From contig NZ_AWNH01000111.1 in assembly GCF_000482245.1 (NCBI RefSeq), positions 1 through 33,768 of the forward strand: a stretch of DNA of 33,768 nt, read 5' to 3'. Below are positions 4,715-28,154 of the stretch, one piece after another (the stretch's first letter is position 1; every line of letters begins with the position of its first letter). The DNA comes from Leptolyngbya sp. Heron Island J (lineage in GTDB: Bacteria > Cyanobacteriota > Cyanobacteriia > Phormidesmidales > Phormidesmidaceae). A program made the position numbers and the translations under genes. Below the pieces are notes generated by a model that worked only from the letters and a program-made list of their open reading frames with translations, was not told the DNA's origin and did no database searches.

Positions 4715-4768
4715 TGATAAATAGAACGCATGCACTTATCTTGGGGGCACCGAGTTGGAGATGAGTCC

Positions 4769-5533
4769 ATGCAAACCTGCTCTGCGATATCCCTATCCGG
4801 TGGCCAGGGTAAGACCACCACGATTTTTTTCACTGCGCTACTGCTAGCCAAGCAAGGCAAAAAAGTATTAGTTATCGATGCTGACCCCCAGGCCAATCTG
4901 ACCTTTTATCTCAACCACGAAGTCCAGGCCGATGACCCCAGCCTGTTTGAAGTGCTCACCCGTGAGGTCACCATCGAAGACGGCATCTACGAAACTCAAT
5001 ACGAAAATCTATTTATCGTCCCAGCGGATACAGGTCTATTTAAAGTATCCGACCGATTGAGCAGTAGCGGAGCTGGTGCTTTTGCGCTGCGGCGCTGCCT
5101 TAAGGATGTGGCCGATATTTTTGACTACACACTGATCGATGTGCAGCCGTCGCGATCGCAAATCAGCCTGACCGCTGCAGGTGCATCCAACCACGTTCTT
5201 ATTCCTGTCGAAGCCAACGTTAAAGGCGTTAACTCCCTAGTTGAAACTCTCGCTTTCCTAGATGAACAAGCCGACATCGAAGCATTTAATGGTCAGGTAT
5301 TGGGTATCGTTCCATTTCGAGATCGCTGGGTAGGCAATACCCAAACCAAAGAAAGCCGCGAAAACGTTGCCGCCATGAAAGAATTCGCAGGCGATGTCCC
5401 GGTACTTGCTTCCATCCGCGAATCAGAAAAATACAAAAACGCTATCCGTACCGGCAAGCTACTATCTGACATCGGACAGCTCGATTTGCAGTACCCTTTT
5501 GAACAAATCACGGAGTCCTTGAGCAATGAGTGA
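4769..5533 (+). CDS. parA: ParA-family partition ATPase, cassette 1
   Basis: 254 residues from MQTCSAISLSGG; I prefer 4769 to the ATG at 4730 because ParA proteins start directly before the P-loop and GGAG lies upstream. Deviant Walker A SGGQGKTT (residues 10-17), A' motif VIDADPQAN (35-43), Walker B DYTLIDVQPS, and the VPVEAN-like loop IPVEANVKG. The first residue of the canonical KGGxGKT signature is Ser instead of Lys; this Lys normally contacts the phosphates of the partner subunit. Expected to form the nucleotide-dependent partner of the RHH protein encoded next, with which it overlaps by 8 nt. Preceded by the AGACATAT array. Confidence 0.9.
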   Translation: MQTCSAISLSGGQGKTTTIFFTALLLAKQGKKVLVIDADPQANLTFYLNHEVQADDPSLFEVLTREVTIEDGIYETQYENLFIVPADTGLFKVSDRLSSSGAGAFALRRCLKDVADIFDYTLIDVQPSRSQISLTAAGASNHVLIPVEANVKGVNSLVETLAFLDEQADIEAFNGQVLGIVPFRDRWVGNTQTKESRENVAAMKEFAGDVPVLASIRESEKYKNAIRTGKLLSDIGQLDLQYPFEQITESLSNE

Positions 5534-6510: not shown

Positions 6511-6653
6511 AACGATGCCTCCAGGTTCGATAAAAATGTCTTTATTCACTCACACCTTTAAATCCGGTTCAGTAACACCCAAAATTAAAATCAGACAAAT
6601 CAACACATCAACGTCGATTCATCTATAAACAGATTTTAGCTATTCAAAATAAT

Positions 6654-6859
6654 GTGTCAATGTACAAATTACACATTTGTCAAAAATAACAATAATACAT
6701 AACTACTAAATGCCTAATATATGGACAATAACTAATTGTTTATTAAAAAAAGAGGAAAAGTGTCAATTAAAAAGACTTTAATTCGAAAAAATTTGTTTCA
6801 GCTCGACATAATAATTTTTAGCTGTCTTGACATTTTTGATTTACTCTATTGACACTTTT
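6654..6859. promoter_or_regulatory. TGTCAA/TTGACA repeat region upstream of the island
   Basis: TGTCAA occurs at 6655, 6678 and 6761 and its complement TTGACA at 6827 and 6849; three copies extend to GTGTCAAT. AAAAGTGTCAAT (6757-6768) and ATTGACACTTTT (6848-6859) are a perfect 12-bp inverted pair. The 6550-7052 gap is AT-rich and otherwise empty. These are likely operator sites for the HTH protein encoded next; the TTGACA copies could also act as -35 elements. Confidence 0.55.
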
Positions 6860-7052: not shown

Positions 7053-9671
7053 ATGGCCAATCCAAAGCCGACAAAAGCCATCCATATATATGAGGAGAAA
7101 TACAGGGAACAAAAGTCTCGGATTTGGAAGGGATTTAATCAATACCTGGGGACACTCCAGGATGCCTATGATGTCACCGTCAAAGAATTAGCCGATGGTC
7201 TAATGATTAGTCGTCAAAAGTTCTATGACTTTAGGGCTGCTCCTGAAAAGGGATTGTCAATTGATCAGACAGCACTGATAATCCTGTGGGAATGTTTGAG
7301 CGATCCTGGCAATCTCAAAGATAAACGGATGTCAGCAGAGATAAGAAAGAAGCGGGAGACTTTACGGCAAGAAGGACCTAATCATTTATTAAAAGCTGCT
7401 GGCTTCTCAGCTATAGAAAATGACGAGGAATCAGAAAGGAAGGAAAAAGCCACACTGAAAACTGATACAAGCCTCGATCGCATTAAAGCAAGACTCAATA
7501 GCTCATGGATTGAAGATGGTCTTCGTAAAGCTCAAATTATTGATTCTATTTTTGATCTTGTTAAAGACAAAGGGCGGTTAGACAAAACATTACACACCCA
7601 ACCTATCAGCGCGATAGAAGCCCTAGGCTGGTTAGAAGGGCATCCACTAGATGTCACTGACCAGGACGTGCTCCGCATGTATAAGGACGAAATTCGTAGG
7701 CTGGCTCGGTCTGGGAAAAATCAGTTTGTTGGGGCTGAACTGTTTGAGCTCTACCAAAACATACTGGAATACCTATCGATCGATAGTTACGGCAGTAAAG
7801 GAATGCGCATTACTAGCTGCCAGTTTCGCATTCTATCGGCACCACTCCCGGCTTCAGTACAGGATATATTTGAAGAATTTAGCCAAATCTATCAGAACGC
7901 AGAAATCGCATTACTACAGTTGTTGTGTAATCTCACAGATTTTGATCCTAATGCACTATCGCAGGCTGAATTGTTTACACCAGTGGTTCGAGCTCAGATC
8001 ACCAGCTATTTAGACGATGGAAAAAAAGAAAAACTAGACGATAGAAAGAAAGAAAAAATTGTCTGGAGATATAGCTCTACCGGAACCCACCTTGAAAATA
8101 TGCTATCTGCCATCAAACTGGGACTGGGACACTCCTTAGAAATGACAGGATTTTCAATCCATGCAATGGGACCTACGGCCAAAAGTCTGGCACGGGTCTC
8201 CATTGGATTAGCTGAACGCAATGATGATGGCACAGTTGGCAACGTCTACCAGGGATGGTGGGTCGGATCTAATGCCATTATATCGGTGTTGACAGCAGCT
8301 GTGATTGCCACCAAGGATTGGCTATATAGCCAGGCCGCTAGCCGCTCTCATTACTTTACCACTTGTAAGCAACTAGGGGACATCGACAATAAGCTTTATC
8401 TCATCCGTGAAAATGTACATGAGTTCTTTTTTCGAAGTGTCAGCGATTACTTTAAAAATTCTGAGTATTCTGACGAAGAAACCTTTTTCAAGACTGCAGA
8501 AACTCGGATTTTAGAAATCGAGAACGGTTTAAGCGTAGAACAACAGCAGCCTTCCTTTAGGGATCGCAACCAGGCATTAAAAAATAGACTGTTCAAGACC
8601 AAATTAACGCGCATGCGCTTGGCTCTGAAAAAATCTGCTATCGGCGCAGCAACCCACAATCTTGATGACGTCAAGTCATTCATCGCCACTTACGAAAACG
8701 ATAACCTCTCAAAAGACTATGAGTCAGAAGAAGAGGCTTATCGCCATATCCTCTTCCTACAGGCATCCGAGTGTGTGATGCTATATAACTTCTATGCAGG
8801 GGATCGAGAGTTTCTAAATGGAAAACTGTGGCGATATCGTCCTCGATATAAGTACGAAAACGGCCTGAAAAAACTAGGCAAGTATATTAAAGCGGTAGGA
8901 GCGCTCAACTTTGATACCTTCTCCTGCGCATCCCAAGTCTTTGGCAATATCGGCATTTTAGAGCTTTATATGGCCCAAGAAAAAGACACTCAGTTTTTAC
9001 AACAAGCTGCCGAAAATTTACTATGGGCTGCCCACTACTCACAGCGGATTGGCTACGTCAGACGGGCCACCTACTGGTTAACCCACGCTAGCCGCGTTTA
9101 TTGTCGGTTAGGAGAACTAGAAAAGTCTGAACGACTTTCTACAATTGCCCAAGCTGCTGCAAATTCAGTCCATCAAGACCATCAAGAAGAGCTAGAGTAC
9201 GACTCTAGATTTAAAGATTTTATCGCTGCCATTAAAACCCTGACAGAGGGGGAACGATTCCTTGCTAACCAGGAGCCAACGAAGGCAATTTTATCTTTTT
9301 TGAACGCATTAGATGTCTTTGTGAATATTCACGCTACGGATCGACTCACAGCAGATACACTCTATGGTTTATACAGGGCCTCTCAGGTTGTTGACGATGA
9401 AGTTGGCCATGTCTTTGAAATTCTCAAAGATAATTTTGAATATACTCAACCAGACCCAGGTATGAGGGCTATTCTCGAAAAAATCATTCAGTCCTTAAAG
9501 CAAATTCCCCCTGAAGCTTCTTGGAAATCAATCTCTCCAAAATTTAAAGAGCTTGCAAAATCAATCTGGCATCACTGGGTAGAAGAAGGCAGCGAGGCAT
9601 CAGAAACCCATCCTATTGAAGATGCTATGGACCGAGATCAATTCCTAATCGCTGTCAAAAAATCTGACTAG
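7053..9671 (+). CDS. Large HTH protein with helical repeats, island paralogue A
   Basis: 872 residues. An XRE-like helix-turn-helix is visible at about 41-60 (TVKELADGLMISRQKFYDF). The rest is soluble and mostly helical; the C-terminal third has TPR-like helix pairs (about 655-700, ENLLWAAHYSQRIG ... ASRVYCRLGELEKS). The protein is collinear over its full length with the product of 12013-14610: shared marks are the HTH, a W-Y-S-S-x-T-H-x-E-N-M motif (~337-350), ASRVYCRLG (~685) and an end of the type IWHHW ... HPIEDxM. No P-loop or catalytic motif is visible. AAGGA precedes the ATG. First gene of an apparent operon with the ThDP enzyme and the cupin. Family not recognised; a sensor-regulator is an inference. 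Confidence 0.8.
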   Translation: MANPKPTKAIHIYEEKYREQKSRIWKGFNQYLGTLQDAYDVTVKELADGLMISRQKFYDFRAAPEKGLSIDQTALIILWECLSDPGNLKDKRMSAEIRKKRETLRQEGPNHLLKAAGFSAIENDEESERKEKATLKTDTSLDRIKARLNSSWIEDGLRKAQIIDSIFDLVKDKGRLDKTLHTQPISAIEALGWLEGHPLDVTDQDVLRMYKDEIRRLARSGKNQFVGAELFELYQNILEYLSIDSYGSKGMRITSCQFRILSAPLPASVQDIFEEFSQIYQNAEIALLQLLCNLTDFDPNALSQAELFTPVVRAQITSYLDDGKKEKLDDRKKEKIVWRYSSTGTHLENMLSAIKLGLGHSLEMTGFSIHAMGPTAKSLARVSIGLAERNDDGTVGNVYQGWWVGSNAIISVLTAAVIATKDWLYSQAASRSHYFTTCKQLGDIDNKLYLIRENVHEFFFRSVSDYFKNSEYSDEETFFKTAETRILEIENGLSVEQQQPSFRDRNQALKNRLFKTKLTRMRLALKKSAIGAATHNLDDVKSFIATYENDNLSKDYESEEEAYRHILFLQASECVMLYNFYAGDREFLNGKLWRYRPRYKYENGLKKLGKYIKAVGALNFDTFSCASQVFGNIGILELYMAQEKDTQFLQQAAENLLWAAHYSQRIGYVRRATYWLTHASRVYCRLGELEKSERLSTIAQAAANSVHQDHQEELEYDSRFKDFIAAIKTLTEGERFLANQEPTKAILSFLNALDVFVNIHATDRLTADTLYGLYRASQVVDDEVGHVFEILKDNFEYTQPDPGMRAILEKIIQSLKQIPPEASWKSISPKFKELAKSIWHHWVEEGSEASETHPIEDAMDRDQFLIAVKKSD

Positions 9672-9729
9672 GACAAAGCATTGCGTCATGGATAAATCCA
9701 AATGTATTCAGATGATTGGAGGAGATATT

Positions 9730-11442
9730 ATGTACAAGAAAGCCAAATATACTCGAGCCTCAGCGCTACAGACCAAAAAATTAGTCAGCAACAATACCCG
9801 ATATTTCGGGGTAGCTCACAACAATATTACAGGTACAAAGCCATCAGATTTTTTTACACGGTCATCTCATCAGCCTTGGTGGCCAACGTCCAAAAAGAAA
9901 GAATCACAGAGTGCTGCTGAATTACTGGTGAAATGCCTTGAGGCTAAAAATGTTCATTTTGTTTTTGGCCAACTTAGAGACAGTAAGTCTTTACTGGAGC
10001 AGGCCCTCCATCAGTCGTCAATTCAGTTTATTCCCACCCGCCATAGTGGAGAAGCTGCTTCCATGGCTCATGTTCACAGCCGCTTTACTGGTCAGGCAGG
10101 AGTCTGTCTTGCGACATCAATGCAAAGCATACTCAATTCTTTGCCTGCTGTGGCTGTGGCTAATCTCAATAATATTCCTCTGATTTTAATTACGGAGCAA
10201 TCAATCAGTAATTATCTTGCCATCAATACGCAGGAAAATCTAAATCTGAACAACATAATTGCTCCGGTAACTCAATGGAGTCATCAAATTGATCATCCTG
10301 TAGATATACCAGAGGTTGTTCATAAAGCGTTTGCACAAGCAGAAATAGGAACCGATATAAAACTGCCAGGAGCAGTGCATATTAACTTACCGACAACAAC
10401 AGCAATAAGGTCAACTTCAGCGACGCCTCTCAAACTTGTTACGGAGAAAAAGGTTAACCCAAATACTAAACTCTTGAGCCAAGCAGCACAATGGATCAGT
10501 AGAGTGGACCATCCCATAATTTTGGTTGGTAGTGGTGCTATTCAATCAGAGGGTAGAAGTCAAGTAATTAAACTTGCTACACAGCTAGAAATTCCAGTCG
10601 CTAATACAGTGATGGCCAAAGGGATAATCCCTGAGAATCATCCTCTTTCTGTAGGGACCGTAGCCTCATCAAAGGACTATAGTCGCTATGGCTTTGATTG
10701 GGCTGACCTCGTAATTACAATAGGGTGCCACCCAACAGAATGTACTCCTAAAGACTGGAATCCTGATGGGGATATTCCTACACTTCACATCGGTCAATCA
10801 TCTGCTGAAATTACTCCCTACTATCATCCTACTCTCGAACTCGTGGGTAATCTTCCAGAAACTTTAGCTGCTTTTCTAAACCGGGCGAATCGGCAGGATA
10901 AATACAAGGTAGCTTCCCCCAAGGGATATGCAATCAGCTCGACAACTCCTCGCCAGCAAAGCCATGAAATTCAAATTCCTTGCAAACCTCAGGCCTTAAT
11001 CAAAGTCCTGCGAACAGCTCTAAAATCAGAAGATATTTTACTCTCAGATAATGGTACACATCGCGAGTGGATCATCCGTGACTATCCTTGTGAGTTACCT
11101 AACAAATGTCTTCTCTTCAACGAGTCTGCATCTACAGGATTGGTAATTTCAGGAGCGATTGCCACAAAATTGACCAATCCCCAACACAACGTACTTGCTG
11201 TGACGGGTGCTGATGGCTTTATGAAAAGCTATTCAGCACTTGAACCAGCCCAATGGCTCAAAACCCCATTTGTCACATTGATTTGCAATCAGGGCGGGTA
11301 TTATCCTAACTTTGTCGAGATCGCTAAGAGTATGGGTTTTCGGGGATATCGCATAACCAGTTCAGACGACCTGCTACCCATAGTCAAGGATTCTTTAACT
11401 CAGCAGGTTCCGATAATCATTGACTGTCCTATGGACTACTAG
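9730..11442 (+). CDS. ThDP-dependent enzyme, acetolactate-synthase-like but divergent
   Basis: 570 residues from the ATG at 9730, which has GGAGGAG five bases upstream; an in-frame ATG at 9688 lacks an SD. The three-domain ThDP layout is seen: pyrimidine-binding domain (~60-225; RHSGEAASMAH, then TSMQSILNSLPAVAVANLNNIPLI), central NAD/FAD-fold domain (PIILVGSGAIQSEGRSQV ... ), and the diphosphate-binding domain (~380-550) with GADGF ... CNQGGY for the usual GDG ... NN. In the family motif RHEQGAA the cofactor-activating Glu follows His; here that position is Ser and a Glu stands two places later. The first ~60 residues are an extra extension. It sits between the two large HTH genes. Substrate unknown; a 2-oxo acid is likely if it is active. 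Confidence 0.85.
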   Translation: MYKKAKYTRASALQTKKLVSNNTRYFGVAHNNITGTKPSDFFTRSSHQPWWPTSKKKESQSAAELLVKCLEAKNVHFVFGQLRDSKSLLEQALHQSSIQFIPTRHSGEAASMAHVHSRFTGQAGVCLATSMQSILNSLPAVAVANLNNIPLILITEQSISNYLAINTQENLNLNNIIAPVTQWSHQIDHPVDIPEVVHKAFAQAEIGTDIKLPGAVHINLPTTTAIRSTSATPLKLVTEKKVNPNTKLLSQAAQWISRVDHPIILVGSGAIQSEGRSQVIKLATQLEIPVANTVMAKGIIPENHPLSVGTVASSKDYSRYGFDWADLVITIGCHPTECTPKDWNPDGDIPTLHIGQSSAEITPYYHPTLELVGNLPETLAAFLNRANRQDKYKVASPKGYAISSTTPRQQSHEIQIPCKPQALIKVLRTALKSEDILLSDNGTHREWIIRDYPCELPNKCLLFNESASTGLVISGAIATKLTNPQHNVLAVTGADGFMKSYSALEPAQWLKTPFVTLICNQGGYYPNFVEIAKSMGFRGYRITSSDDLLPIVKDSLTQQVPIIIDCPMDY

Positions 11443-11478
11443 AAAATCTGTCTACAACATTATTAGGAGAATATTATT

Positions 11479-11940
11479 ATGAGTAAGCCTAGTCAGATCA
11501 CACTTCATCCATTGTCCTCCGAGAAATCGGGCAGCTCTGAGTTTTACGAACTGCAACGGAGCGATCAAACACTTGTAGTAGAGGTAGGTGCCGGGGTGAT
11601 TGAGGACCTATTTGTCCATCATTTCCAAACGGATCAGCTGGTGGTGGTCAAAGGCAGTCTAGTCATAGTGACATTGCAAAACCAACGTTACGAATACCAT
11701 GCTCTCAGCGAGCACACACCCACAACACTTGAGATTCCACCTGGTATTCCGCACAGTGCTATTAACTTAAGTCCTGAGCCTTGTGTGGTAGTAAATTCTG
11801 TCTTACGCCATGGTCCGCCCCATGAGCGGGATTATCAACCTACGAAGCCGCCTTTTCCATACGATATTGCTAAAGCAATGCAGCTACTGAGAACGGTCAC
11901 AGGTGATCAGTATCAGTATCCAATGCTTAAAGCTATATAA
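11479..11940 (+). CDS. Single-domain cupin protein
   Basis: 153 residues. Cupin motif 1 is reduced (LFVHHFQTDQLVVVKGSLVIV, residues 44-64; HH instead of HxH) and motif 2 is intact (EIPPGIPHSAIN, 85-96; PxG, His and Asn all present). The spacing and the D-Q-L-V-V-V-K-G segment recall the RmlC-like sugar-nucleotide epimerase branch, but the protein is too divergent for a specific call. AGGAGAAT precedes the ATG, and it lies 36 bases after the ThDP gene, so the two are surely co-transcribed. It could metabolise the product of that enzyme or bind a small ligand. Confidence 0.8.
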   Translation: MSKPSQITLHPLSSEKSGSSEFYELQRSDQTLVVEVGAGVIEDLFVHHFQTDQLVVVKGSLVIVTLQNQRYEYHALSEHTPTTLEIPPGIPHSAINLSPEPCVVVNSVLRHGPPHERDYQPTKPPFPYDIAKAMQLLRTVTGDQYQYPMLKAI

Positions 11941-12012
11941 GGGCTAAACCGCTGAGACTACATGCAAATACAAAAAAGCTCAAACACCAGAGGACAGCTG
12001 GATTGAAGAACT

Positions 12013-14610
12013 TTACCTAACAAGTTTTAGATATTTCCCCTTCTTAATCTCATCCTCCAGAGGATGTTTTGCATCCAGATTTCCAGACGATGTAACTGCC
12101 CAGTTATGCCAAATCTTTTGAGCCGCCTGCTTAAAAAATGGGGCGGCATCCGCCAGCATCATATTGCTATCTAAGCTAGAGATCGCATCAATCGCCTCAG
12201 CCACAAAATGATTACCAGTGCATTTTTGCGAAATACTGTAACACCCTAGCCAACTTCCCAGATTCACAGGCTGTTCCAAAACTTCAGCCGTACGGGCAAT
12301 ATTGTAGAGACCATCAGCGAGCAGACGTACAAACCCTAAATAGGCCGCCCCCTGAAAAGAACGGCCAAAATGGTATATTGCTGCCTGCGGGTCCTGGTCA
12401 ATAAGCAATACTTTCTCTCCACGACTAATATGGATCTCTGCCATAATCGCATCCTTATATTGATCGCCATAGCGCTGATCAATTGACTGACGAAGCAATT
12501 GATCAGTCATACAGATTAACTTATTAGCCATCCCACCATCCCCTAACCGGCAATACACCCGGCTAGCATTCGCCAACCAATGGGCCGTACGCTTACGCTC
12601 CCCTACTTTGGATGCATAATAGGCCGCTATCAGCAGGTTGTCAGCGGCCTGAACCAAGTAAACCTCTTCTGCTTCAGTGGAAAATACAAATTCTAATCGC
12701 CCTGCACGAGCATAAATTTCGGAAGCACACAGATAAACATTCGTATCCAATCGGCCACGGTATCGACGCTGAGTACCACTAGAATCAGCTCCAAAAATAT
12801 AATCTCTCAACCATTTGAGATGACTTGGAAATGAGTCTCTCCACTGCCTACCTGCAATAAATGTGTGATCTCCTGAATAGAATTTCTGCAACATTTGCTC
12901 TTGATAAAGACGCAAATTAAGAGCCACATCTTCATCAACTCCAGGCAACCGCAATGTCTTTTTAGCCTGCTTTAAAAACTCAGCAGCCTGCTTTAAGTCA
13001 CCTTCTACATGACAAGACCGAGCACAGGCAATTTGAGAAAGGCAATACTTCCTTTCCAAATTGACGCCATACCATGATTGCAAAATAGGTGTCGGAACCA
13101 AAATTTCCTGCCGTAAATGCTCAATCGGCCGTACCACGTTTTTAAGTAAATAATCCCGAGCAGGAGCCACCCTTTCCTCCTCCTGTGACTGAAGCACATA
13201 ATCACTTAGAGATTTACAACCATGGCGCAGGCAATCTGTTGCCTCAGCCATATCAGTGCATGCGTCATAATATCGAGCATAGACTTCAACATTAGGCAAC
13301 TTAGTAGTCAACCAGCTTTTCAAAGCAACTACAACGGATTGAGCCGCACCCACGACAGTGCTTTTATCCACCCAAATACCTTGATGTAACCGATCTTCTC
13401 CACGTTCCTTGAGTGTTGTAGAAGCTTTCACTAAACTGTCAACACGTCGTCCTATACTAATCGTTGAAAAGTCAACTAACTCTAGCTCTCCTTCACATCC
13501 CATGCCTTGATAAATAGCAGTAAACATATTTTCAAAGTGGGTTGCAGAGGAAGCATAACTCCAGGAAATTCGTTCGCTATGCTTCTGTTGGTTTCGATAC
13601 GTTTGAAAAATACAGGTTACCGATGCTTTTGTAACAACATCGGCAACCACACCCCTAAGATATCGCTGTCGCTCATCTGAATGACTCTCCTTCAAATAAT
13701 CATCGCCCGAAAAGCGAAGTCTAGATTCTGCATATAGAAATAACTGCATCAACTTATCTCTAAAGTCTCGATCTCCAGAATCATCTAATTCCAGAATTGA
13801 AAACGTCAAATCTGAAAATTGACATTGTGAAACCCTTATCTTGAAAACACTTTCAATCTTTCTATAGATTTTTTCATTTTCCAGTATGGATAAATAGAGC
13901 TCGAATATTTCTCGACTTTTAAGCGTATGCCTGCCTTGCCTAGTCAATTTATATATGGCTCTTCTAAATCGCTTTTCTATTGAAGGGTTTAACTCCATAT
14001 ATATATTGTTTTCAATCCACTGAGTGACCCAATCATCAATATTTTTTTCAGATAAATATTGATCAGATAATTCTTCCTCAGCAGACATCTCTGCTAAATG
14101 CTTAAGACCAAAGGTTCTCGAAATAAATTCTCTTTCTAGAAAATCAATTAAATCAATAAAATCAGTGGCATCTTGAACCGGGATCATCGATAAACCAGAC
14201 GCAATTCGCTGGATTTGTTGATAACGTTCTGGATGTGCTGATAGCTTGAGCTGCTCACCCTGAGGCAAAAATCCGGCTACTTGAAGCAACCGATCGGGAC
14301 CAGCTTTCTGTAGTATCTTACGAGCATCCTGATGTTTTACTGATAAACGTTTATTTTGTAAACCTTCTGACGATGTCAGTGCATGCCAAAGACACATTAA
14401 ATGCATTCTTTGAATGGGCAAGTCTGGCCGACTCTTCTGCATAAATGACACTAAGGGCTGGCGACTAATCGTCAATCCTTCTGCAAGCTCTATATTTGTT
14501 GCCCCTAACTCGTGCTTATATCGCTGCAATTCTTGGCGTAATTGGGCCCAATAATTGTTTTGCTCACGCTCATATTGTTTGACAGCATTATTCTCTGTTG
14601 AAAATTTCAT
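12013..14610 (-). CDS. Large HTH protein with helical repeats, island paralogue B
   Basis: 865 residues, convergent with the A-ThDP-cupin operon. HTH at about 38-56 (NIELAEGLTISRQPLVSF); WSYASSATHFENMF at ~350-363; TPR-like C-terminal region with ADNLLIAAYYASKVG and ASRVYCRLGDGG (~655-700); end of the type IWHNW ... HPLEDEI. All of these fall at the same positions as in paralogue A, so this is full-length paralogy, not a shared domain. The middle (100-330) differs most. No SD is evident before the ATG. It is divergent from the pentapeptide-repeat gene, with AGACA-type repeats in between. Presumed DNA-binding regulator with a ligand- or protein-binding superhelix; function not known. Confidence 0.8.
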   Translation of the reverse strand: MKFSTENNAVKQYEREQNNYWAQLRQELQRYKHELGATNIELAEGLTISRQPLVSFMQKSRPDLPIQRMHLMCLWHALTSSEGLQNKRLSVKHQDARKILQKAGPDRLLQVAGFLPQGEQLKLSAHPERYQQIQRIASGLSMIPVQDATDFIDLIDFLEREFISRTFGLKHLAEMSAEEELSDQYLSEKNIDDWVTQWIENNIYMELNPSIEKRFRRAIYKLTRQGRHTLKSREIFELYLSILENEKIYRKIESVFKIRVSQCQFSDLTFSILELDDSGDRDFRDKLMQLFLYAESRLRFSGDDYLKESHSDERQRYLRGVVADVVTKASVTCIFQTYRNQQKHSERISWSYASSATHFENMFTAIYQGMGCEGELELVDFSTISIGRRVDSLVKASTTLKERGEDRLHQGIWVDKSTVVGAAQSVVVALKSWLTTKLPNVEVYARYYDACTDMAEATDCLRHGCKSLSDYVLQSQEEERVAPARDYLLKNVVRPIEHLRQEILVPTPILQSWYGVNLERKYCLSQIACARSCHVEGDLKQAAEFLKQAKKTLRLPGVDEDVALNLRLYQEQMLQKFYSGDHTFIAGRQWRDSFPSHLKWLRDYIFGADSSGTQRRYRGRLDTNVYLCASEIYARAGRLEFVFSTEAEEVYLVQAADNLLIAAYYASKVGERKRTAHWLANASRVYCRLGDGGMANKLICMTDQLLRQSIDQRYGDQYKDAIMAEIHISRGEKVLLIDQDPQAAIYHFGRSFQGAAYLGFVRLLADGLYNIARTAEVLEQPVNLGSWLGCYSISQKCTGNHFVAEAIDAISSLDSNMMLADAAPFFKQAAQKIWHNWAVTSSGNLDAKHPLEDEIKKGKYLKLVR

Positions 14611-14750
14611 AGTGCAACAAAGCCATAGAACAACAGGTCTAAATCAGACTCAAACATTTTTAAACTGTGTATCAATCTCCCACAACACAAACTTCAATGT
14701 CTATGATGAAATCGGAATAGAGACCTTTCCACAGTATTCTGACTAAGAAG

Positions 14751-14868
14751 TAGACAAAACCTCTTTTTCTGTCTAAACAATAGACGAAGTTATAGGTTTA
14801 TAACTGTTTTTATTTAATTTTAGACACTTAATAGACAAATTAGTTATCCTATGTAGGTCTTTAAGACA
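14751..14868. promoter_or_regulatory. TAGACA/TGTCTA repeats in the divergent promoter region
   Basis: TAGACA or a one-base variant starts at 14751, 14781, 14821, 14832 and 14863 (AAGACA), with the inverse TGTCTA at 14770. They lie between the start of paralogue B and the pentapeptide-repeat gene in a 290-bp AT-rich gap. The core differs from the TGTCAA sites before paralogue A by one base, as expected for related regulators with shifted specificity. Operator function is inferred. Confidence 0.5.
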
Positions 14869-14902
14869 AACTCCAAAAGTTTTTCTATAGGTCAGGTGTC
14901 CT

Positions 14903-16768
14903 ATGCCTAATTCAACCCTGACCCCTGGAGGCGACTACAGTGGCCAAGACTTCCAGGGTCGTGATTTGCGTGAACTTGATCTTAGTCGCGCCAACTTGAG
15001 TGGTGTGGATCTCTCTAACGCCAATCTTAAAGATACTGACCTCAGCTATGCCAATCTCACAAACGCAAACTTATATTGTGCCAATCTTGAGGGGGCTCGT
15101 CTTGACCACGCCAATCTGGAAGAGGCCAACTTAGAAGGGGCTCACCTACTGAGAACCTCATTAATTAGAACTCACTTACAACGAACTAAATTAACTGGGG
15201 TCAACCTCAACCACGCCGACCTGAGAGACGCTGACCTCAAATTTGCTAATCTCAGCAGTGCTCAACTGGAACAAACGAATCTCTCCTCTGCTGACTTGAG
15301 TGATGCCACATTAGAACAAACTAATCTACGGCAAGCGAATCTTCGACAATCAAAACTTAAGGATGCCAAGTTGAAAAATGCTGTCCTGGTCCAGGCTGAC
15401 CTCAGTGGGGCCGACTTATCCTATGCTGAATTGCGCGGCAGCGATCTTAGAGATGGGCAGCTGACAGGAGCCATTCTACGGGATGCTCACTTAACCTCCT
15501 GTTCTATGGAAAACGCTCAGCTCAACAGTGCTGACTTAACCAATGCCTCCTTACGCAATGCCTACCTCAGTAATGCAAACTTGAGTCAAGCCGTCCTGAA
15601 AAACGCTAAACTTTCACGCGCTCAAATCAGCGCTGTACAACTGCATAATGCTGAGCTTAAGAAGGCAGACCTTAGTGGAGCAGTTTTAAATCAAGCCAAT
15701 CTACGAGGGGCGGATCTCTCAGAAGCACATCTAGACAGTGCCAGTCTGCTGGCCACTGATCTGTCCGGGGCTAACCTTCAAAAAGCTTCGCTGGGTCGAT
15801 GTTATCTAGTGGCTGCTGATATGAGCCATACCAATTGCCAAGAAACTTATTTTGGAAATGCTGTATTGATTGCAGCGGACCTATGCCATGCCGATTTTCG
15901 GCATGCCGATTTTGGTGGAGCCAAACTGATACTCACGGATTTAAGCCATGCCAATCTCGACAATGCAAGTCTTCCCAGGGCCAATTTAAGTGATGCGAAT
16001 CTGCAAGACACCTCTTTTAAGGATGCTACCCTCACTCGGGCTTATCTAGCAGGGGCTACTCTCAACCGGGCCAATCTAAAAGGCGCTGACCTCAGTGCAG
16101 CAAACTTACTCAATTCTCGATGGATTCATACCTCAGCAGAAGGTGCTTATATGAATCGCGCCTATTTCAGCGATGTTAAGGTTACTGATAGTAACTTGCT
16201 AGAGGCAGATTTCATTACAGCCGATCTAACCCGCACAGAGTTCAACAATACGGCTGTCAAAAAAACAAAGCTGGGGGGCAATCGTGGATTAAATCAGCTA
16301 TGGAAAGAAACACTACATGAACAAGGCGCTATTTTTCTAGGTTCAGTCACCAATGCTGCTGATAGTAGCCCTGAAGAAGAAAACCAGGAAAATTTCATGC
16401 CACACCATGTTATTGATCGGTTCAAAGGAGACGTAAAATTCCGACTATTGGATGCCAGGGACACCGTTAATTTACTCAAAGACGCAATTCGGTTAGTGCG
16501 CACTACGATTGAAGATGTTACCGATAGCAATATTGGGAATCAAACAAAAGAACAATTACTTGAGCAATTGCATCACTCCACTCTGCAGATGGAGAATAGC
16601 CTTGATGAGTATCAAAATGATTTATTTGAGCACTGCGAAGGCAACTTGGGGGAAGAAACATGGACACCCTCTGAGTTATCCATGGAGTTTGACCATATTC
16701 ACGAACAAATCCTGTTAGTTGGCAAACACATTCGATTTGTTTACCAAATGTGGAAACAACTGGATTAA
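14903..16768 (+). CDS. Large pentapeptide-repeat protein with helical C-terminal domain
   Basis: 621 residues. From about residue 15 to 450 it is nearly uninterrupted A(D/N)Lxx pentapeptides (for example LSRANLSGVDLSNANL), which fold into a right-handed quadrilateral beta helix of roughly 20 coils. The C-terminal ~170 residues are different: charged, helical, starting around NRGLNQLWKETLHEQG and ending VYQMWKQLD. Pentapeptide proteins of this size are common in cyanobacteria; some (MfpA/Qnr type) mimic DNA, but those are about 200 residues and have no such tail. No signal or membrane segment. Divergent from paralogue B, whose sites it may share. Confidence 0.9.
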   Translation: MPNSTLTPGGDYSGQDFQGRDLRELDLSRANLSGVDLSNANLKDTDLSYANLTNANLYCANLEGARLDHANLEEANLEGAHLLRTSLIRTHLQRTKLTGVNLNHADLRDADLKFANLSSAQLEQTNLSSADLSDATLEQTNLRQANLRQSKLKDAKLKNAVLVQADLSGADLSYAELRGSDLRDGQLTGAILRDAHLTSCSMENAQLNSADLTNASLRNAYLSNANLSQAVLKNAKLSRAQISAVQLHNAELKKADLSGAVLNQANLRGADLSEAHLDSASLLATDLSGANLQKASLGRCYLVAADMSHTNCQETYFGNAVLIAADLCHADFRHADFGGAKLILTDLSHANLDNASLPRANLSDANLQDTSFKDATLTRAYLAGATLNRANLKGADLSAANLLNSRWIHTSAEGAYMNRAYFSDVKVTDSNLLEADFITADLTRTEFNNTAVKKTKLGGNRGLNQLWKETLHEQGAIFLGSVTNAADSSPEEENQENFMPHHVIDRFKGDVKFRLLDARDTVNLLKDAIRLVRTTIEDVTDSNIGNQTKEQLLEQLHHSTLQMENSLDEYQNDLFEHCEGNLGEETWTPSELSMEFDHIHEQILLVGKHIRFVYQMWKQLD

Positions 16769-16814: not shown

Positions 16815-17312
16815 TTAGCGCTTGGGTTTAGCTTTTGCTCTAATTTTTCGTTCTCGCTTGCTGTTCGGAAATAAATCTCGAGTGACAATGTAGTATAAAC
16901 CAAAGAAATCTGATGCTACCGCTGCCAAATAGCCTATTTGCATTCTTTCAGAAACATCAGCCTTTTCATTGAATACTGGCACGGACAAAAGAACCATCAG
17001 CCAGATAGGAATAACTGCCATTGGGCCAATCAGAGATAATAAAACCCATTTTCGTAATTTAAGACGCTGCTCTAGTTCCGCATTTAAGTATTCATCTTCT
17101 GGTGATGTGATCGCATTTGGCGCAATTACATCATCCGTTGAAGTGACGTCTCGCTCATCTGAGTGCAACTCCATTGAGCCATCGCCAGCAGCATTCTTCC
17201 CTAGAAAATCTGTGGTTGAGACGACCTTTTCAGAAGGCACTTGCTTAACCTTATCAGTTACTCTTGCTTGCCTATTAAGCAAACGCTGAAAATCAAAAAA
17301 GCCTATTGCCAT
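16815..17312 (-). CDS. Integral membrane protein with cytoplasmic linker
   Basis: 165 residues. The first ~85 are polar and acidic; a basic segment (LEQRLKLRKW) leads into two hydrophobic helices (VLLSLIGPMAVIPIWLMVLL at ~94-113 and IGYLAAVASDFFGLYYIV at ~132-149) and a strongly basic tail (KRERKIRAKAKPKR) that should lie in the cytoplasm. GGGAGAAG before the ATG supports the start. Convergent with the pentapeptide-repeat gene, 46 bases apart. Function unknown. Confidence 0.75.
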   Translation of the reverse strand: MAIGFFDFQRLLNRQARVTDKVKQVPSEKVVSTTDFLGKNAAGDGSMELHSDERDVTSTDDVIAPNAITSPEDEYLNAELEQRLKLRKWVLLSLIGPMAVIPIWLMVLLSVPVFNEKADVSERMQIGYLAAVASDFFGLYYIVTRDLFPNSKRERKIRAKAKPKR

Positions 17313-18138: not shown

Positions 18139-18483
18139 TCAACCAACCGTTTGCAAATGCCTTATTTGCCCTCCGGTGATTTCTTGAGCACTACTTTTTT
18201 CGAGCACAGGCAACGGCTTCACCAACAGGGTATTAGCTTCTCTTCCTAAGACTAAAACCCTTGTCTTGGGAAGGATACAGAGACCTTGTTGAGATGCTGC
18301 ATACCAATAGATACCGCGGTAACGCACTCGCCCTCGCTGATGGGGACTAATAGCCTCTACCACTTCAGCAACTTGTTCAAACTCCTGCACGGTCAGATGG
18401 GTTCTCCTGTTACTGACCTTGACAGTCGACTGCTTGGACACAGAAAACAATTCTAGTAAACTCTGGAATCCTAAGCTTTTCAT
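18139..18483 (-). CDS. NfeD-like OB-fold domain protein, soluble
   Basis: 114 residues. The segment from about 45 to 95 (PHQRGRVRYRGIYWYAASQQGLCILPKTRVLVLGREANTLLV split over five strands) has the pattern of the NfeD C-terminal OB domain: G-R-V-R-Y-x-G-x-x-W-x-A, then I-x-x-x-T-x-V-x-V-x-G, then a final strand ending V-K-P-L. NfeD proteins partner with membrane stomatins, but this one has no membrane helices. AAGAGAG precedes the ATG. Partner not present in the window. Confidence 0.7.
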   Translation of the reverse strand: MKSLGFQSLLELFSVSKQSTVKVSNRRTHLTVQEFEQVAEVVEAISPHQRGRVRYRGIYWYAASQQGLCILPKTRVLVLGREANTLLVKPLPVLEKSSAQEITGGQIRHLQTVG

Positions 18484-18960: not shown

Positions 18961-19389
18961 GTAGAAGGCTCTATCTACGATGGCGATACACTGCGGGTTG
19001 AGCGTGGTGGGCAGGAGCTGAAAATCAGATTGTGTGGCGTTGATGCTCCAGAACTAAAGCAGGCTGGGGGGATTGAGTCACGGGACCATTTGCGATCGCT
19101 AGTTGCTCAGGGTGGTGGGGCTATCGGTGTGGTTGCGATTGAGAAGGACCAATATAAGCGCACGGTGGCAGATTTGTTCATCATGAAATCAGATGGTTCA
19201 GAGATTCACCTGAACTCTCAAATGGTGATAGACGGCCACGCCTACCACTATGAGAAGTATTCGGGCAGCTGCCCACAGCCAGATGTGTTGGTGCGTGCTG
19301 AGGAGATAGCTAAATCGAACGGAGTGGGACTATGGTCCACTCCCAAGGCTGAGAAGCCATGGGAGTTTAGAGAAAAAGCCAATCCTTAA
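18961..19389 (+). pseudogene. Staphylococcal-nuclease-like (thermonuclease) gene lacking its start
   Basis: The frame is open from 18961 (after TGA at 18958-18960) and reads VEGSIYDGDTLRVERGG, then KIRLCGVDAPEL, then EKDQYKRTVADLF and NGVGLWS. These are the SNase signatures with all expected catalytic residues: the DGDT Asp, the Arg of IRLCG, the Asp and Glu of VDAPE, and the Arg of YKRTV. The family cleaves DNA and RNA with calcium and is normally exported. There is no ATG, GTG or TTG before the DGDT block; the first usable start (TTG at 19030) would lose it and the first Arg. No signal peptide is seen. Probably a 5'-truncated gene, or a non-standard start I cannot recognise. Confidence 0.75.
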
Positions 19390-21274: not shown

Positions 21275-21907
21275 ATGCCAAAGGTTAACCGAAAGGGGCA
21301 GGCGGAAGTATTAAGCCGAGATCAGTTGGCTCAACTTTGGGCTGAGTTAAACCAGCCCCATCGGTTGATCACTCAGCTAGCGTACTACACCGCGAGTCGT
21401 ATTAGCGAAGTATGTGCGCTGCGGGCTGAAGATATCAGCGCTGGGAAAATCGTGATTCGGCAGAGTAAGACGGAGCGGACCAAGGAAGTGGTGATTGTGC
21501 CGCCGTTGCAGGATGCGATCTCAACCGCTCCCCTGCCCACCACTGGCTATCTTTTCCCGCCAGCGAAGTGGACCCGTGCGACGGTCAAGCGCTATCGCAT
21601 TCAACGTCATAAAACCGGTGGCCAGCACTTTGAATTGGTGGGTGAACTTCCCCCACGACAGCACATTAGTTCTCGGGCAGTGGATAAGGCGTTGCGAAAA
21701 GCCTGTGATGGTCTGGGAATTCAGGGTGTGAGCACGCATACGTTTCGGCGGTCGTTAGCCACACATCTCTATGATGCTGAGGTGCCGTTGCGGCAGATTA
21801 TGGAGATTACGGGCCATGCGAGTTTAGCTTCAGTGACGTGCTACCTAAACCTAGAGCAGCGCGCGGCAGAGAATGCGTTATTGAATTTTTTTAGAGATTC
21901 ATTATGA
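21275..21907 (+). CDS. Tyrosine recombinase, catalytic domain only
   Basis: 210 residues. All catalytic residues of the family are visible: R42 (TASRISEV), K65 (RQSKTERTK), H155 and R158 (THTFRRS), H181 (TGHAS) and the nucleophile Y190 (TCYLNL). The N-terminal SAM-like core-binding domain of XerC/D (about 100 residues) is absent, so DNA clamping must differ or need a partner. Such short recombinases are found on cyanobacterial plasmids. It could resolve plasmid multimers at the adjacent palindrome, or drive fusion and separation of replicons. Confidence 0.9.
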   Translation: MPKVNRKGQAEVLSRDQLAQLWAELNQPHRLITQLAYYTASRISEVCALRAEDISAGKIVIRQSKTERTKEVVIVPPLQDAISTAPLPTTGYLFPPAKWTRATVKRYRIQRHKTGGQHFELVGELPPRQHISSRAVDKALRKACDGLGIQGVSTHTFRRSLATHLYDAEVPLRQIMEITGHASLASVTCYLNLEQRAAENALLNFFRDSL

Positions 21908-22330: not shown

Positions 22331-23563
22331 TCAGTTCAGACTGATAGCTTCAGGTATTAACTTTTTTTCTTTAATTACCATAGTAAGAAGAGGGCAGCTG
22401 AATCGAGCCCTTGTTAAATCTGTTTCAGAAAAGTCTGCATAATCTAAGTTCGCATCACGAAAATCCGTTCCCTCAAGATTACAATTACGGAAACAAGCGC
22501 CGGAAAGATCAGCACCTTGGAAGTCAACATACTTTAAGTTTGCAGACTGCAGATTGGCATTTCGTAGACTTGCATTCTGGAAAGTCGAACCGAAGAGCGT
22601 AGCACCAACCAGGCAAGCATCGTCTAACATACTTTGATCAAAGTTTGCATCGTTGAAAAAAGAATGCTTTAGAGAAGCCTGACTCATGTTAACCCGCCTT
22701 AATTTCGCACCATCCCAATTTACACAATCGAGATTGGCTTGTTTCAAATTGGCATATCGAAAATCAGAATTTTCAGCCCGGCTGTATTTTAAGTTGGCTG
22801 AGAAGAGATTGGCATGAACCAAACAAGCCCCCTCAAAATCTACGTTTTCGAGATTGGCATGATTTAAGTTTGCTTCGTATAAATTGGATTTGGAGAAGTT
22901 CGCTTGGTGTAGAAAAGCTCTCGCTAAGTTTGAAGAGGCCATTCGTGCACATGCGAAGTCCATACCTTCAAGATGCTGACCGGATAAATCTACACCATAA
23001 AGAGATAGACCTTGAAAAGGTAAAAATGAAGAAGCTGTATTCAGCTCCTCAATCTTTTGTAGATATCTATCTTGTAACGTCTGCCCTAATTTTCTCATAT
23101 GAAAATTATTTCCTGACAAAATAAACACTTTACTTGTAAGAACTTCTTCTAGATTTTGTCGAGCTAAGAGTTCTTTGACAGATAAGGTACTAGTGTCATT
23201 GCAGTCGAAGTCCTGAGGGCGATGAGTGATGATAGCGCCCAAAGAATTCTTCATACAGCAAATCACCTCAACAGCTGATTCATAATCAGAAGTCTGAATC
23301 TGACGAGCAGCATGTAGGCACTCACCAGAGGTGTCACAGATCATCACTCGAGACTGAATTGCAAGTGCTGCTACCTCAGCTGCATTTGTATTCTGTAGCT
23401 TCCTAATAATATCAATAATCCGATTGAAGCCGATATCTGTCAGATAGCCCTGAATTTGGCTGAATTTAAGAATTTCCCAAATATCAAGCGGGTCATCTTT
23501 ATCCCAAACCCTATTCAGCAGGGCATCCAAGAGCATATCGGCATCAATCAGTATTTCAAACAT
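22331..23563 (-). CDS. PIN-domain and pentapeptide-repeat fusion protein
   Basis: 410 residues. Residues 1-140 look like a PIN domain: hydrophobic strand to the first acidic residues (EILIDADMLLDALL, D7, D9), helices, a strand with late Asp (VMICDTSGEC), and AIITHRPQDFD, the usual penultimate strand and helix of VapC-type PIN proteins. Residues ~180-395 are some 40 A(N/D)LxxA-type pentapeptides forming a beta helix. PIN enzymes cut RNA with bound metal; adding a beta helix is unusual and might target or regulate the nuclease. The XRE gene 120 bases upstream on the same strand could be its antitoxin-like regulator. No SD visible. Confidence 0.75.
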   Translation of the reverse strand: MFEILIDADMLLDALLNRVWDKDDPLDIWEILKFSQIQGYLTDIGFNRIIDIIRKLQNTNAAEVAALAIQSRVMICDTSGECLHAARQIQTSDYESAVEVICCMKNSLGAIITHRPQDFDCNDTSTLSVKELLARQNLEEVLTSKVFILSGNNFHMRKLGQTLQDRYLQKIEELNTASSFLPFQGLSLYGVDLSGQHLEGMDFACARMASSNLARAFLHQANFSKSNLYEANLNHANLENVDFEGACLVHANLFSANLKYSRAENSDFRYANLKQANLDCVNWDGAKLRRVNMSQASLKHSFFNDANFDQSMLDDACLVGATLFGSTFQNASLRNANLQSANLKYVDFQGADLSGACFRNCNLEGTDFRDANLDYADFSETDLTRARFSCPLLTMVIKEKKLIPEAISLN

Positions 23564-24426: not shown

Positions 24427-24620
24427 TCACCAAGGCAACCAATTCCGCCGAGTTTCCCGAATCGTCTGCCTTACTGAGCCCACGATTCTATCGTTCACTT
24501 CCTCCTGCGACTCACCGCCGATAGTCCCTTTCATCCGCTCCATCTCAAAGCCAGCCAACGTCTCATTGGCCATGTCAGTATCCTGCACAATAGACGGCAG
24601 TGTTGGCAGTTACGACTCAA
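24427..24620 (-). pseudogene. Decayed third copy of the third gene of the three-gene set
   Basis: On the minus strand this reads LPSIVQDTDMANETLAG, FEMERMKGTIGGESQEEV, NDRIVGSVRQTIRETRRN and WLPW before a stop. That aligns with the last ~55 residues of the proteins at 28051-28500 and 2338-2790 (NESLSANELERMHGTIGGETQEEV ... RKWLPW). The upstream part of the gene is absent. The sequence after the stop (gagatcgca) also resembles the other copies. Truncated relative, most likely a remnant of a third arm. Confidence 0.7.
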
Positions 24621-24710: not shown

Positions 24711-25292
24711 ATGATTGTCACCCTCTGCCAGTTCAAGGGTGGTGTGGGCAAAACCACCAGCGCTATTCACTTTGCGGCGTTGCTACAAGCGAAAGCCCAC
24801 ACACTTTTGATCGACTCAGACCCGAATAAGTCAGCTTCCTTATGGGCCAGAAAAGGACTGTTGCCGTTTGATGTTTGCCTGGAAGCCGAAGCCCCAAAGC
24901 GGCTAATGAAAGGCAACTATACCCATACCGTTATCGATACCCCGGCTCGTCCATCATCCGATGAAGTGGAAAGCATCGCCAACGGTACGGACTTGTTAAT
25001 CCTACCGACGACTCCCGATCCGCTCTCAATTTCTGCGCTGATTCAAATGGCGGGGAGTCTGCCTGAAGGTACTAACTATAAATGTCTGATTACGTTGGTT
25101 CCGCCACCGCCGCAAAAAGATGGGACTGAGGCCAAAACGGCATTAGAACGTCATGGGTATCCGATATTTCAGCGACCGGTTCGACGCTACAAGGCGTACA
25201 TCCATGCGGCGAGTAATGGTCATACCGTAAAAGGGCCTGCTCAAAATGACTGGAAAGCTATCTGGGAGGAACTGAGCGATGAACTTGGATGA
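24711..25292 (+). CDS. parA: ParA-family partition ATPase, cassette 2
   Basis: 193 residues, the short form without an N-terminal DNA-binding domain. Canonical deviant Walker A FKGGVGKTT (8-16, signature Lys present), A' LLIDSDPNKSAS, Walker B-like HTVIDTPARPSS, and LPTTPDPLS. Typical of type Ib plasmid ParA/ParF proteins. Overlaps the next gene by 14 nt. It differs strongly from the ParA of cassette 1 (254 residues, SGG P-loop), so they come from different lineages. Confidence 0.9.
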   Translation: MIVTLCQFKGGVGKTTSAIHFAALLQAKAHTLLIDSDPNKSASLWARKGLLPFDVCLEAEAPKRLMKGNYTHTVIDTPARPSSDEVESIANGTDLLILPTTPDPLSISALIQMAGSLPEGTNYKCLITLVPPPPQKDGTEAKTALERHGYPIFQRPVRRYKAYIHAASNGHTVKGPAQNDWKAIWEELSDELG

Positions 25293-27656: not shown

Positions 27657-28154
27657 ATGGGTAATGCCAAACTATTGGTCGCAATGAAACTGCCAGAGCT
27701 GAAGGACAAAGTATGGAAGGCATGGGCGTTCCTCAATGAATGGAAGGGGCAAGTGCTCCAGCCTGAGAACTACGTGTCTGAAATTAAACGCTTTGGCGAC
27801 CGTCGATACAAGAAAACATGGGTCAAGGCATTGGCCTACTTTAAGGCCGTAAGCGCCTATGAAAACTGCCTTGATGCCTACATGCTGATCTTGCACACTT
27901 TTAACTTTACGCCCGACCGGTGGGACTATGAATATCGGCATGAAATTCTAGATGCTTTTTTGATGTATCCAGATGGAATGGAGATTATCAAAAAAGGTCT
28001 AGAACAATTATTATCAAAAGACTTTAGCCCCCAAGAGAGAGAAGAAGCAAATGGGTTTTATTCCTTGGTGGAAGAACGAGAAGGAGACACTGGAGCCGTC
28101 GGAATCACAGCTGGATCTCCTCGGAGAATCCCAGGAGCTGTCACCGCAGCGTAA
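27657..28154 (+). CDS. Conserved unknown protein, second gene of the three-gene set (right)
   Basis: 165 residues, starting 14 bases after the lipoprotein gene with AGGAG upstream. Same blocks as the left copy: RFGDRRYKKTWVKALAYFKA, CLDAYMLILHTFNF, DRWDYEYRHEILDAFLMYP. Soluble, helical. The last ~35 residues are translated from the overlap with the next gene and diverge more than the body. Function unknown. Confidence 0.8.
   Translation: MGNAKLLVAMKLPELKDKVWKAWAFLNEWKGQVLQPENYVSEIKRFGDRRYKKTWVKALAYFKAVSAYENCLDAYMLILHTFNFTPDRWDYEYRHEILDAFLMYPDGMEIIKKGLEQLLSKDFSPQEREEANGFYSLVEEREGDTGAVGITAGSPRRIPGAVTAA

Follow-up and report, generated by a model that had tools for sequence, protein, structure and literature searches.

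Organization of the locus

The stretch of DNA described here (the window) is the whole of contig NZ_AWNH01000111.1 of Leptolyngbya sp. Heron Island J, 33,768 bases long, which is one of 119 contigs in an 8.06-Mb assembly and is cyanobacterial as judged from its relatives. It encodes two large, mutually related proteins, here called HTH-A and HTH-B for their helix-turn-helix (HTH) regions, whose genes enclose those of a thiamine diphosphate (ThDP)-fold protein and a cupin. A gene for a pentapeptide-repeat protein diverges from the HTH-B gene.

7053-9671 (+): HTH-A, 872 aa
9688-11442 (+): ThDP-fold protein, 584 aa, with an N-terminal extension of ~70 aa; probable pseudo-2-oxoglutarate decarboxylase, catalytic residues lost
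11479-11940 (+): 153-aa cupin belonging to a cyanobacterial family
12013-14610 (-): HTH-B, 865 aa
14903-16768 (+): pentapeptide-repeat protein, 621 aa; its C-terminal region, starting near residue 478 (position 16334), is free of the repeats

A first-pass annotation of the window had proposed this set of open reading frames and this layout, both of which were confirmed. Its view of the large proteins as collinear likewise holds, as HTH-A and HTH-B align end to end with 28% identity over residues 16-871 (E 5.4e-67; 25% in the family alignment). The gaps between the HTH-A and ThDP genes (16 nt) and between the ThDP and cupin genes (36 nt) are so small that these three genes fit an operon, as had been suggested. 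HTH-B is convergent with this operon and is separated by 292 nt from the divergent pentapeptide gene. Pfam cut-offs are passed by the TPP_enzyme N, M and C domains, which make up the three-domain ThDP fold, and by Pentapeptide; Cupin_2 in the cupin scores below its cut-off (21.4 bits vs 27.2). HTH-A and HTH-B match no Pfam or NCBIfam family, their Pfam hits being at chance level only.

Architecture of the HTH proteins

Structure prediction, which the first-pass annotation had recommended for the large proteins, was carried out for HTH-B and delineates an HTH region, a domain resembling the allosteric domain of LeuA, and a superhelix of tetratricopeptide repeats (TPR). Boundaries in HTH-A follow from its alignment to HTH-B.

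HTH-B, residues 39-57 (14440-14496): HTH
HTH-B, residues 254-437 (13300-13851): LeuA-like allosteric domain
HTH-B, residues 438-865: TPR superhelix
HTH-A, residues ~43-61 (7179-7235): HTH
HTH-A, residues ~250-427 (7800-8333): LeuA-like allosteric domain
HTH-A, residues ~428-872: TPR superhelix

The full-length AlphaFold2 model of HTH-B (mean predicted local distance difference test score, pLDDT, 82; predicted TM-score 0.76) begins with a helical HTH region, continues with a mixed domain (residues 254-437) and ends in a long series of helical repeats. Elements of the mixed domain occur in the order strand, inserted helices, strand, strand, helix, strand, strand, strand, helix, which corresponds, with a helical insertion and at modest TM-scores, to the bbba-bbba fold of the allosteric domain in LeuA and citramalate synthase. 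When the whole of HTH-B is used as a Foldseek query, the top four matches are to Mycobacterium tuberculosis LeuA (best E 7.5e-3, probability 1.00). Folded alone (pLDDT 84), the domain yields 12 Foldseek matches at E <= 1e-3, every one of them either to LeuA or to the regulatory domain of Leptospira citramalate synthase with isoleucine bound (best E 1.6e-5). A comparison with VIA places 3f6h at Z 11.1 (120 of 125 residues, 3.8 A) and LeuA at Z 9.8-10.0, followed by an unrelated row at 8.3; that no other family exceeds Z 8.3 is not counted as evidence against other families.

Profile comparison points the same way. An alignment of 18 family members was compared by hhalign with 28 LeuA_dimer domains, which were found with PF08502 among relatives after three of 31 matches had been dropped (L135, L141 and one without a locus). 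The two align over 70 columns (100 under a loose setting) with Prob 92%, P 6.1e-7 and a score of 43.6, the maximum over 200 column shuffles being 24.6, and controls with the HTH, the TPR part or the reversed profile reach at most 0.3%. The three A-type rows alone give Prob 81% (P 1.2e-5) and the B-type rows alone 80%. The order of strands and helices, the fold and the profile match together give good support to homology of the regulator domain with the LeuA/citramalate-synthase allosteric domain. In solved members that domain binds leucine or isoleucine and acts as a dimerizing, ligand-binding unit. The regulators differ in that the domain sits inside an HTH/TPR protein without a synthase domain, carries a helical insertion after the first strand, lacks the GxGP motif found in LeuA and lies below Pfam detection.

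Distribution of the regulator family

A single-protein search found full-length members of the HTH-A/HTH-B family in 15 of 388 cyanobacterial genomes, counting that of the window. Since a profile of 18 members recovers the same 15 genomes, each at E 1.4e-256 or lower, the family appears sharply bounded within this sample. Members also occur on two cyanobacterial plasmids (Nostoc C057 and Fischerella NIES-4106) and in four further named genomes, the latter remaining after eight of 12 matched loci proved to be contigs already counted. Relatives of the HTH proteins were absent from the viral contigs searched, and phages gave no match to the family.

In the family tree, HTH-A clusters with the proteins of loci L021 and L031 and HTH-B with those of L030 and L032 (support 100/100 for each grouping, with a long-branch caution for HTH-A). 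An origin of the pair by local duplication is not supported by this tree, as each protein groups with different loci. Locus L074, in which the gene lies in two frames, was excluded from alignments and tree, and L073-L076 lie outside alignment A1; L065-L072, copies of contigs already included, were excluded from every count.

Promoter repeats and a 17-bp palindrome

Both large genes are preceded by repeats, as the first-pass annotation had remarked.

6651-6859: cluster of TGTCAA half-sites upstream of HTH-A, three on the + and two on the - strand, a motif chosen post hoc
14740-14756, no strand assigned: operator-like copy 1, TGACTAAGAAGTAGACA, one mismatch to TGTCTA-N5-TAGACA
14770-14786, no strand assigned: operator-like copy 2, TGTCTAAACAATAGACG, one mismatch to TGTCTA-N5-TAGACA

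The cluster upstream of HTH-A includes a perfect 12-nt inverted pair, AAAAGTGTCAAT, at 6756-6767 and 6848-6859. With both strands counted, the 500 bp upstream of each gene contain five half-sites, TGTCAA for HTH-A and TAGACA for HTH-B. This clustering is borne out against dinucleotide shuffles, in which the combined motif TGTCWA, picked after the repeats were seen, averages 1.05 (HTH-A) and 0.8 (HTH-B) occurrences and none of 300 shuffles reaches five in either case. The A-type relative L021 has a single TGTCWA in the same interval.

Among HTH-B-type relatives, the TAGACA repeats prove to be half-sites of a conserved 17-bp palindrome, TGTCTA-N5-TAGACA. The survey for it covered 361,887 bases in 21 sequences, which contain 22 genes of the family; the regions within 560 bp upstream of these genes make up 11,897 bases, or 3.3%. 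Fourteen of the 16 sites with at most one mismatch fall within these upstream regions (binomial 2e-19), as do all six perfect palindromes. The 12 other spacings between 0 and 12 place no site upstream, and shuffled half-sites place at most one. By locus, a site with at most one mismatch is present at 11 of 15 B-type and at none of seven A- and C-type loci (L031 having only 137 bp upstream), and although relatives are not independent of one another, the sites are spread over four deep B-type branches of the tree. In L024, L026, L028 and L029, 19-24 bp separate the end of the site from the start codon; the distance is 37 bp in L023, where the site carries two mismatches. Because of this proximity in five relatives, the position of the palindrome suggests self-repression. 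The literature searched contained no description of this palindrome among the matches listed.

Genes associated with the regulators

The neighborhood of the regulator was surveyed by tblastn (E <= 1e-3) at 20 related loci, comprising 14 from genomes of the class, two from plasmids and four from named genomes, with short flanks (<2.4 kb on at least one side) at L023, L031 and L032. Downstream of the pentapeptide gene, the window itself contains three small genes that enter into this comparison.

16815-17312 (-): 165-aa protein whose hydrophobic segments look membrane-like by eye, relatives in loci L026 and L029
17383-17598 (-): 71-aa ribbon-helix-helix (RHH)-like protein, Pfam RHH_1 14 bits, below the cut-off of 20.5
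18139-18483 (-): NfeD-like protein, 114 aa, Pfam PF01957 36.5 bits, cut-off 29.1

The first-pass annotation had proposed a search for the regulator together with ThDP and cupin genes. Within the flanks covered, neither gene was found at any of the 20 loci, and among the loci compared the operon of HTH-A, ThDP and cupin genes is seen in this genome only. The recurrent partners are instead NfeD, the RHH protein and the pentapeptide protein. NfeD is present at 11 loci (its copy in L027 lying 6 kb off) and at one more, L030, by blastp only; the RHH protein is present at seven, in copies 64-80% identical, and a divergent pentapeptide protein lies beside the regulator at six. Linkage of RHH and NfeD genes to the regulator is unlikely to be due to chance, since the genome of the window has a single RHH copy and three of NfeD. 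Relatives of the 165-aa protein occur in a similar place in L026 (37% identity) and in L029 (24%, E 1.4e-8). The C-terminal region of the pentapeptide protein is found in 13 of the 388 genomes, own included, and co-occurs with the regulator in six (hypergeometric 1.6e-6, a value that ignores kinship, three of the six genomes belonging to one genus and two to another).

A protein of ~270-280 aa, CBS-like by eye (no Pfam match in L073), is encoded directly 3' of the regulator gene in L073, L074 and L076.

A proposed regulatory mechanism

The family itself, its allosteric-type domain and the palindrome constitute the finding of this analysis, and the reading of them that we favor, at somewhat better than even confidence, is that the HTH-B-type regulator senses a ligand and regulates both itself and a divergent pentapeptide module through the palindrome in its own promoter. 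HTH-B would be a one-component transcription regulator whose HTH binds TGTCTA-N5-TAGACA, probably as a dimer, and thereby controls HTH-B and the divergent pentapeptide protein, often with NfeD and the small RHH protein nearby. The LeuA/citramalate-synthase-type domain between HTH and TPR would most likely set DNA binding in response to a small ligand, perhaps an amino acid or an oxo-acid, so that self-repression could be either relieved or strengthened by that ligand. HTH-A would be a second regulator, sister to HTH-B, with half-sites of its own (TGTCAA); its gene appears to be transcribed together with those of the cupin and of the catalytically dead 2-oxoglutarate decarboxylase relative.

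Several observations weigh against this reading. The HTH is weak by sequence, and the whole of HTH-B gives no Foldseek match at E <= 1e-3 and no LeuA row among the 50 listed by VIA. TM-scores of the isolated domain are modest (~0.35 by query, 0.52-0.55 by the short target), Pfam LeuA_dimer matches none of 16 family members, and the C-type rows alone (four members) reach only 29% in hhalign against the LeuA domains. The GxGP motif, which marks the start of the first helix in LeuA, is in no member, and 13 of 18 read (S/T)-x-T-H at this place; it is present in all 28 LeuA domains used, where it also guided the choice of strand, although no domain was dropped for it. With GxGP lost, the pocket may have a different ligand or none, and leucine binding by the regulator domain is not supported.

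The palindrome and the pentapeptide gene raise objections as well. With at most one mismatch allowed, L030 and L032, where the nearest relatives of HTH-B are found, lack the palindrome, as do L023 and L025. It is not enriched genome-wide, since counts in seven genomes are not above those of a reversed control, and the genome of the window has 13 one-mismatch places (two at the locus) vs 38 for that control. For this reason only local control is claimed. A regulon beyond the locus was considered but is not claimed: 10 further exact 16-base sites that were inspected comprise six in reading frames, two intergenic and two unplaced, with genome-wide counts no higher than in the reversed control. 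The pentapeptide gene, for its part, adjoins the regulator at only the six loci mentioned, and seven of the 13 genomes that have its C-terminal region are without the regulator.

The TPR superhelix and the identity of the sensor

It is possible, though we hold it to be less probable than sensing by the LeuA-like domain, that this domain is a dimerization scaffold only and that the sensing of a peptide or protein falls to the TPR superhelix, in the manner of RRNPP receptors. The TPR part of HTH-B aligns in VIA with Rap (best Z 19.7), AimR (17.2), NprR (16.8) and PlcR (14.6), and the loss of GxGP would be in keeping with a purely structural role. However, values of 14.6-19.7 are common among helical repeats and indicate likeness of fold only; human TPR proteins rank equal or higher, among them APPBP2, whose Z of 22.4 places it above the RRNPP rows and also detracts from the favored reading. 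HTH-B and the RRNPP receptors share a C-terminal TPR superhelix, which in HTH-B lies behind the HTH, and an N-terminal HTH is likewise present in NprR, PlcR and AimR. The HTH-A/HTH-B family differs in being more than twice as long, in its extra allosteric-type domain, in being cyanobacterial and in having no known pro-peptide gene, for which no search was made.

The TPR part also aligns with domain III of MalT (Z 17.8), a member of the STAND regulators; no Pfam match to a nucleoside triphosphatase (NTPase) was obtained in 16 family members, Walker motifs not being sought by hand. If the ligand of the favored regulator model is leucine or isoleucine, a functional likeness to CodY and Lrp, which respond to branched-chain amino acids, is conceivable, their folds and origin presumably being different from those of the HTH-A/HTH-B family.

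A possible link to conflict systems

Somewhat more doubtful is the notion that the family controls conflict effectors of an anti-phage or cell-death kind, with the HTH protein holding pentapeptide and STAND-like effectors off until triggered. It arises because conflict systems described in prokaryotes, including several from cyanobacteria, count TPR, pentapeptide and apoptosis-type domains among their components (PMC7159879). In L022 and L027, the divergent partner of the regulator is a STAND-like protein with TPRs. The L027 protein (8985-12149, +) is separated from an HTH-B-type regulator by a perfect palindrome and additionally matches TRADD-like (40.4 bits, cut-off 23.7) and TIR (51.3 bits, cut-off 28) domains, and the pentapeptide protein of L024 matches TRADD-like_N at 26.1 bits, over the cut-off of 23.7. 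Moreover, the plasmid copy in L019 lies ~7.5 kb from dpdD. Against this, the STAND-like partner is found at only two of the 20 loci, NTPase matches of the partners all fall below Pfam cut-offs and their designation as STAND is partly by eye. There is also no convincing PADLOC match in the family (DpdC and BrxA at E about 0.007, one member each), the pentapeptide protein of the window lacks a TRADD-like match, and, as noted, phages yielded no relative.

The ThDP-fold protein

The first-pass annotation had described a ThDP enzyme in the operon with HTH-A. The ThDP fold stands, but the loss of catalytic residues makes the status of enzyme doubtful. The best NCBIfam model for the protein, PRK08322, is named acetolactate synthase and is matched at 416 bits, below its cut-off of 509. 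A chromosomal relative in the same genome, 44% identical to the protein of the window, scores 848 bits with this model and sits after an aldehyde-dehydrogenase gene whose best NCBIfam model is succinic semialdehyde dehydrogenase (615 bits, cut-off 730). A decarboxylase of this kind and a succinic-semialdehyde-type dehydrogenase together form the 2-oxoglutarate bypass of cyanobacteria (PMC10418658). Because the chromosomal relative follows such a dehydrogenase gene, an ancestry in 2-oxoglutarate decarboxylase is indicated, and this assignment replaces that of acetolactate synthase. The protein is ~42-47% identical to cyanobacterial 2-oxoglutarate decarboxylase over some 500 residues. Relatives at E <= 1e-60 occur in 281 of the 388 genomes, the best among the matches listed being 46% identical; none of these listed matches is a closer relative, and residues were inspected in only six proteins, so that there may be a second pseudoenzyme.

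Compared with these six intact proteins, which keep the catalytic residues, the ThDP protein of the window carries the changes E50S, D435A and G436D (GDG to GAD), D462Q and M410T. Its C-terminal tail is missing, as is the loop bearing L467 and K471; H385, N461 and Y465 are retained. In the Microcystis enzyme, E50A, D435A and D462A are reported to be inactive (PMC10418658), the residue numbers having been transferred here by motif, as the Microcystis protein is not itself in the alignment. The protein is therefore probably a pseudoenzyme. Its reading frame is intact nonetheless, with no stops where ~17 would be expected had the same degree of divergence arisen at random, and changes by codon position amount to 215/154/334, with more at the third than at the second. 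The open frame, the third-position excess and the lost residues together suggest that the gene has long been maintained as coding, most likely for something other than an enzyme of the old type.

Conceivably, though we regard this as unlikely, the ThDP protein could act as a poison or tuning subunit, joining subunits of the chromosomal 2-oxoglutarate decarboxylase and lowering their activity whenever HTH-A is active. The active site of this enzyme takes Glu50 from the other subunit, according to docking (PMC10418658), an intact copy exists in the same genome after the dehydrogenase gene, and the frame has been kept. However, identity to the chromosomal copy is only 44%, the constraint may date from before activity was lost, and no pseudoenzyme relative that would demonstrate retention was found among the matches listed. 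We give slightly less credence still to an elaboration of the favored model, in which the regulator would have acquired an enzyme's allosteric amino-acid sensor and would read a branched-chain amino acid via this LeuA-type domain and a second signal via the TPR part, and in which the pseudoenzyme of this locus would report or damp the 2-oxoglutarate branch, so that the locus would weigh carbon vs nitrogen status. Finally, the model of the first-pass annotation, that the ThDP enzyme and cupin make or consume a ligand sensed by both HTH proteins, fits the operon spacing, the allosteric-type domain in HTH-A and the action of the ThDP family on a 2-oxo acid, but is very improbable given the lack of both genes in the flanks covered at the related loci, an outcome of the kind that the annotation itself had named as refuting it, and the loss of residues whose replacement inactivates the Microcystis enzyme. 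What survives of that proposal is the idea of a small-molecule signal system, to which the LeuA/citramalate-synthase-type domain in both HTH proteins lends weight; the enzymes as its ligand source are not supported.

The cupin

The family of the cupin occurs in 101 of the 388 genomes, own included (E <= 1e-10). The cupin of the window has the motifs HHFQTDQ and PPGxPHxAxN, as do 13 of 18 relatives fetched, and the five without an exact HHFQTDQ were excluded from the cupin alignment. A response-regulator-like neighbor is present at seven of the 18 cupin loci (by eye), from which no function follows. A ThDP-cupin pair occurs at one of them, in genome G163 (L094, contig C70), where an intact gene of the 2-oxoglutarate decarboxylase type is followed by a cupin of the window family; no ThDP gene was found near the cupin at the other 17, examined over ~3 kb a side in most cases and less in L106, L108 and L110. 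The proteins of G163 are not those closest to the window's, and a shared ThDP-cupin unit is not claimed.

Other features of the contig

The remainder of the contig has a plasmid-like or mobile content, including a tyrosine recombinase of 210 aa at 21275-21907 and two ParA-type ATPase genes at 4730-5533 (+) and 24711-25292 (+). A small gene comes after each of the ParA-type genes, with a weak RHH match in the case of the second. The contig may be a plasmid, although no exact terminal overlap was found. At 22331-23563 (-), a PIN-type domain (PIN_3 27.4 bits, cut-off 27) is fused to a second pentapeptide-repeat region in a protein of 410 aa, and a Staphylococcal-nuclease homologue (SNase 50.5 bits) is encoded at 19030-19389 (+). 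A near-repeated segment of the type GTIGGExQEEVxDRIxGxVRQ is common to the reading frames at 28051-28500 (+) and 24427-24588 (-), by eye. Also by eye, a 159-aa protein at 30646-31125 (-) combines a signal-like start with repeats of the type ARLEALDARTK...HKLRLEHLxNQTKA.

Significance

Narrow word searches of open-licence PubMed Central retrieved no transcription regulator with a LeuA/citramalate-synthase allosteric domain. If the domain binds an amino acid in the HTH-A/HTH-B family, a well-studied feedback sensor would here have been turned into a gene switch with a defined 17-bp site. The locus additionally offers a likely ThDP pseudoenzyme derived from an enzyme acting on 2-oxoglutarate, a metabolite described as an indicator of the carbon/nitrogen balance in cyanobacteria (PMC3898017).

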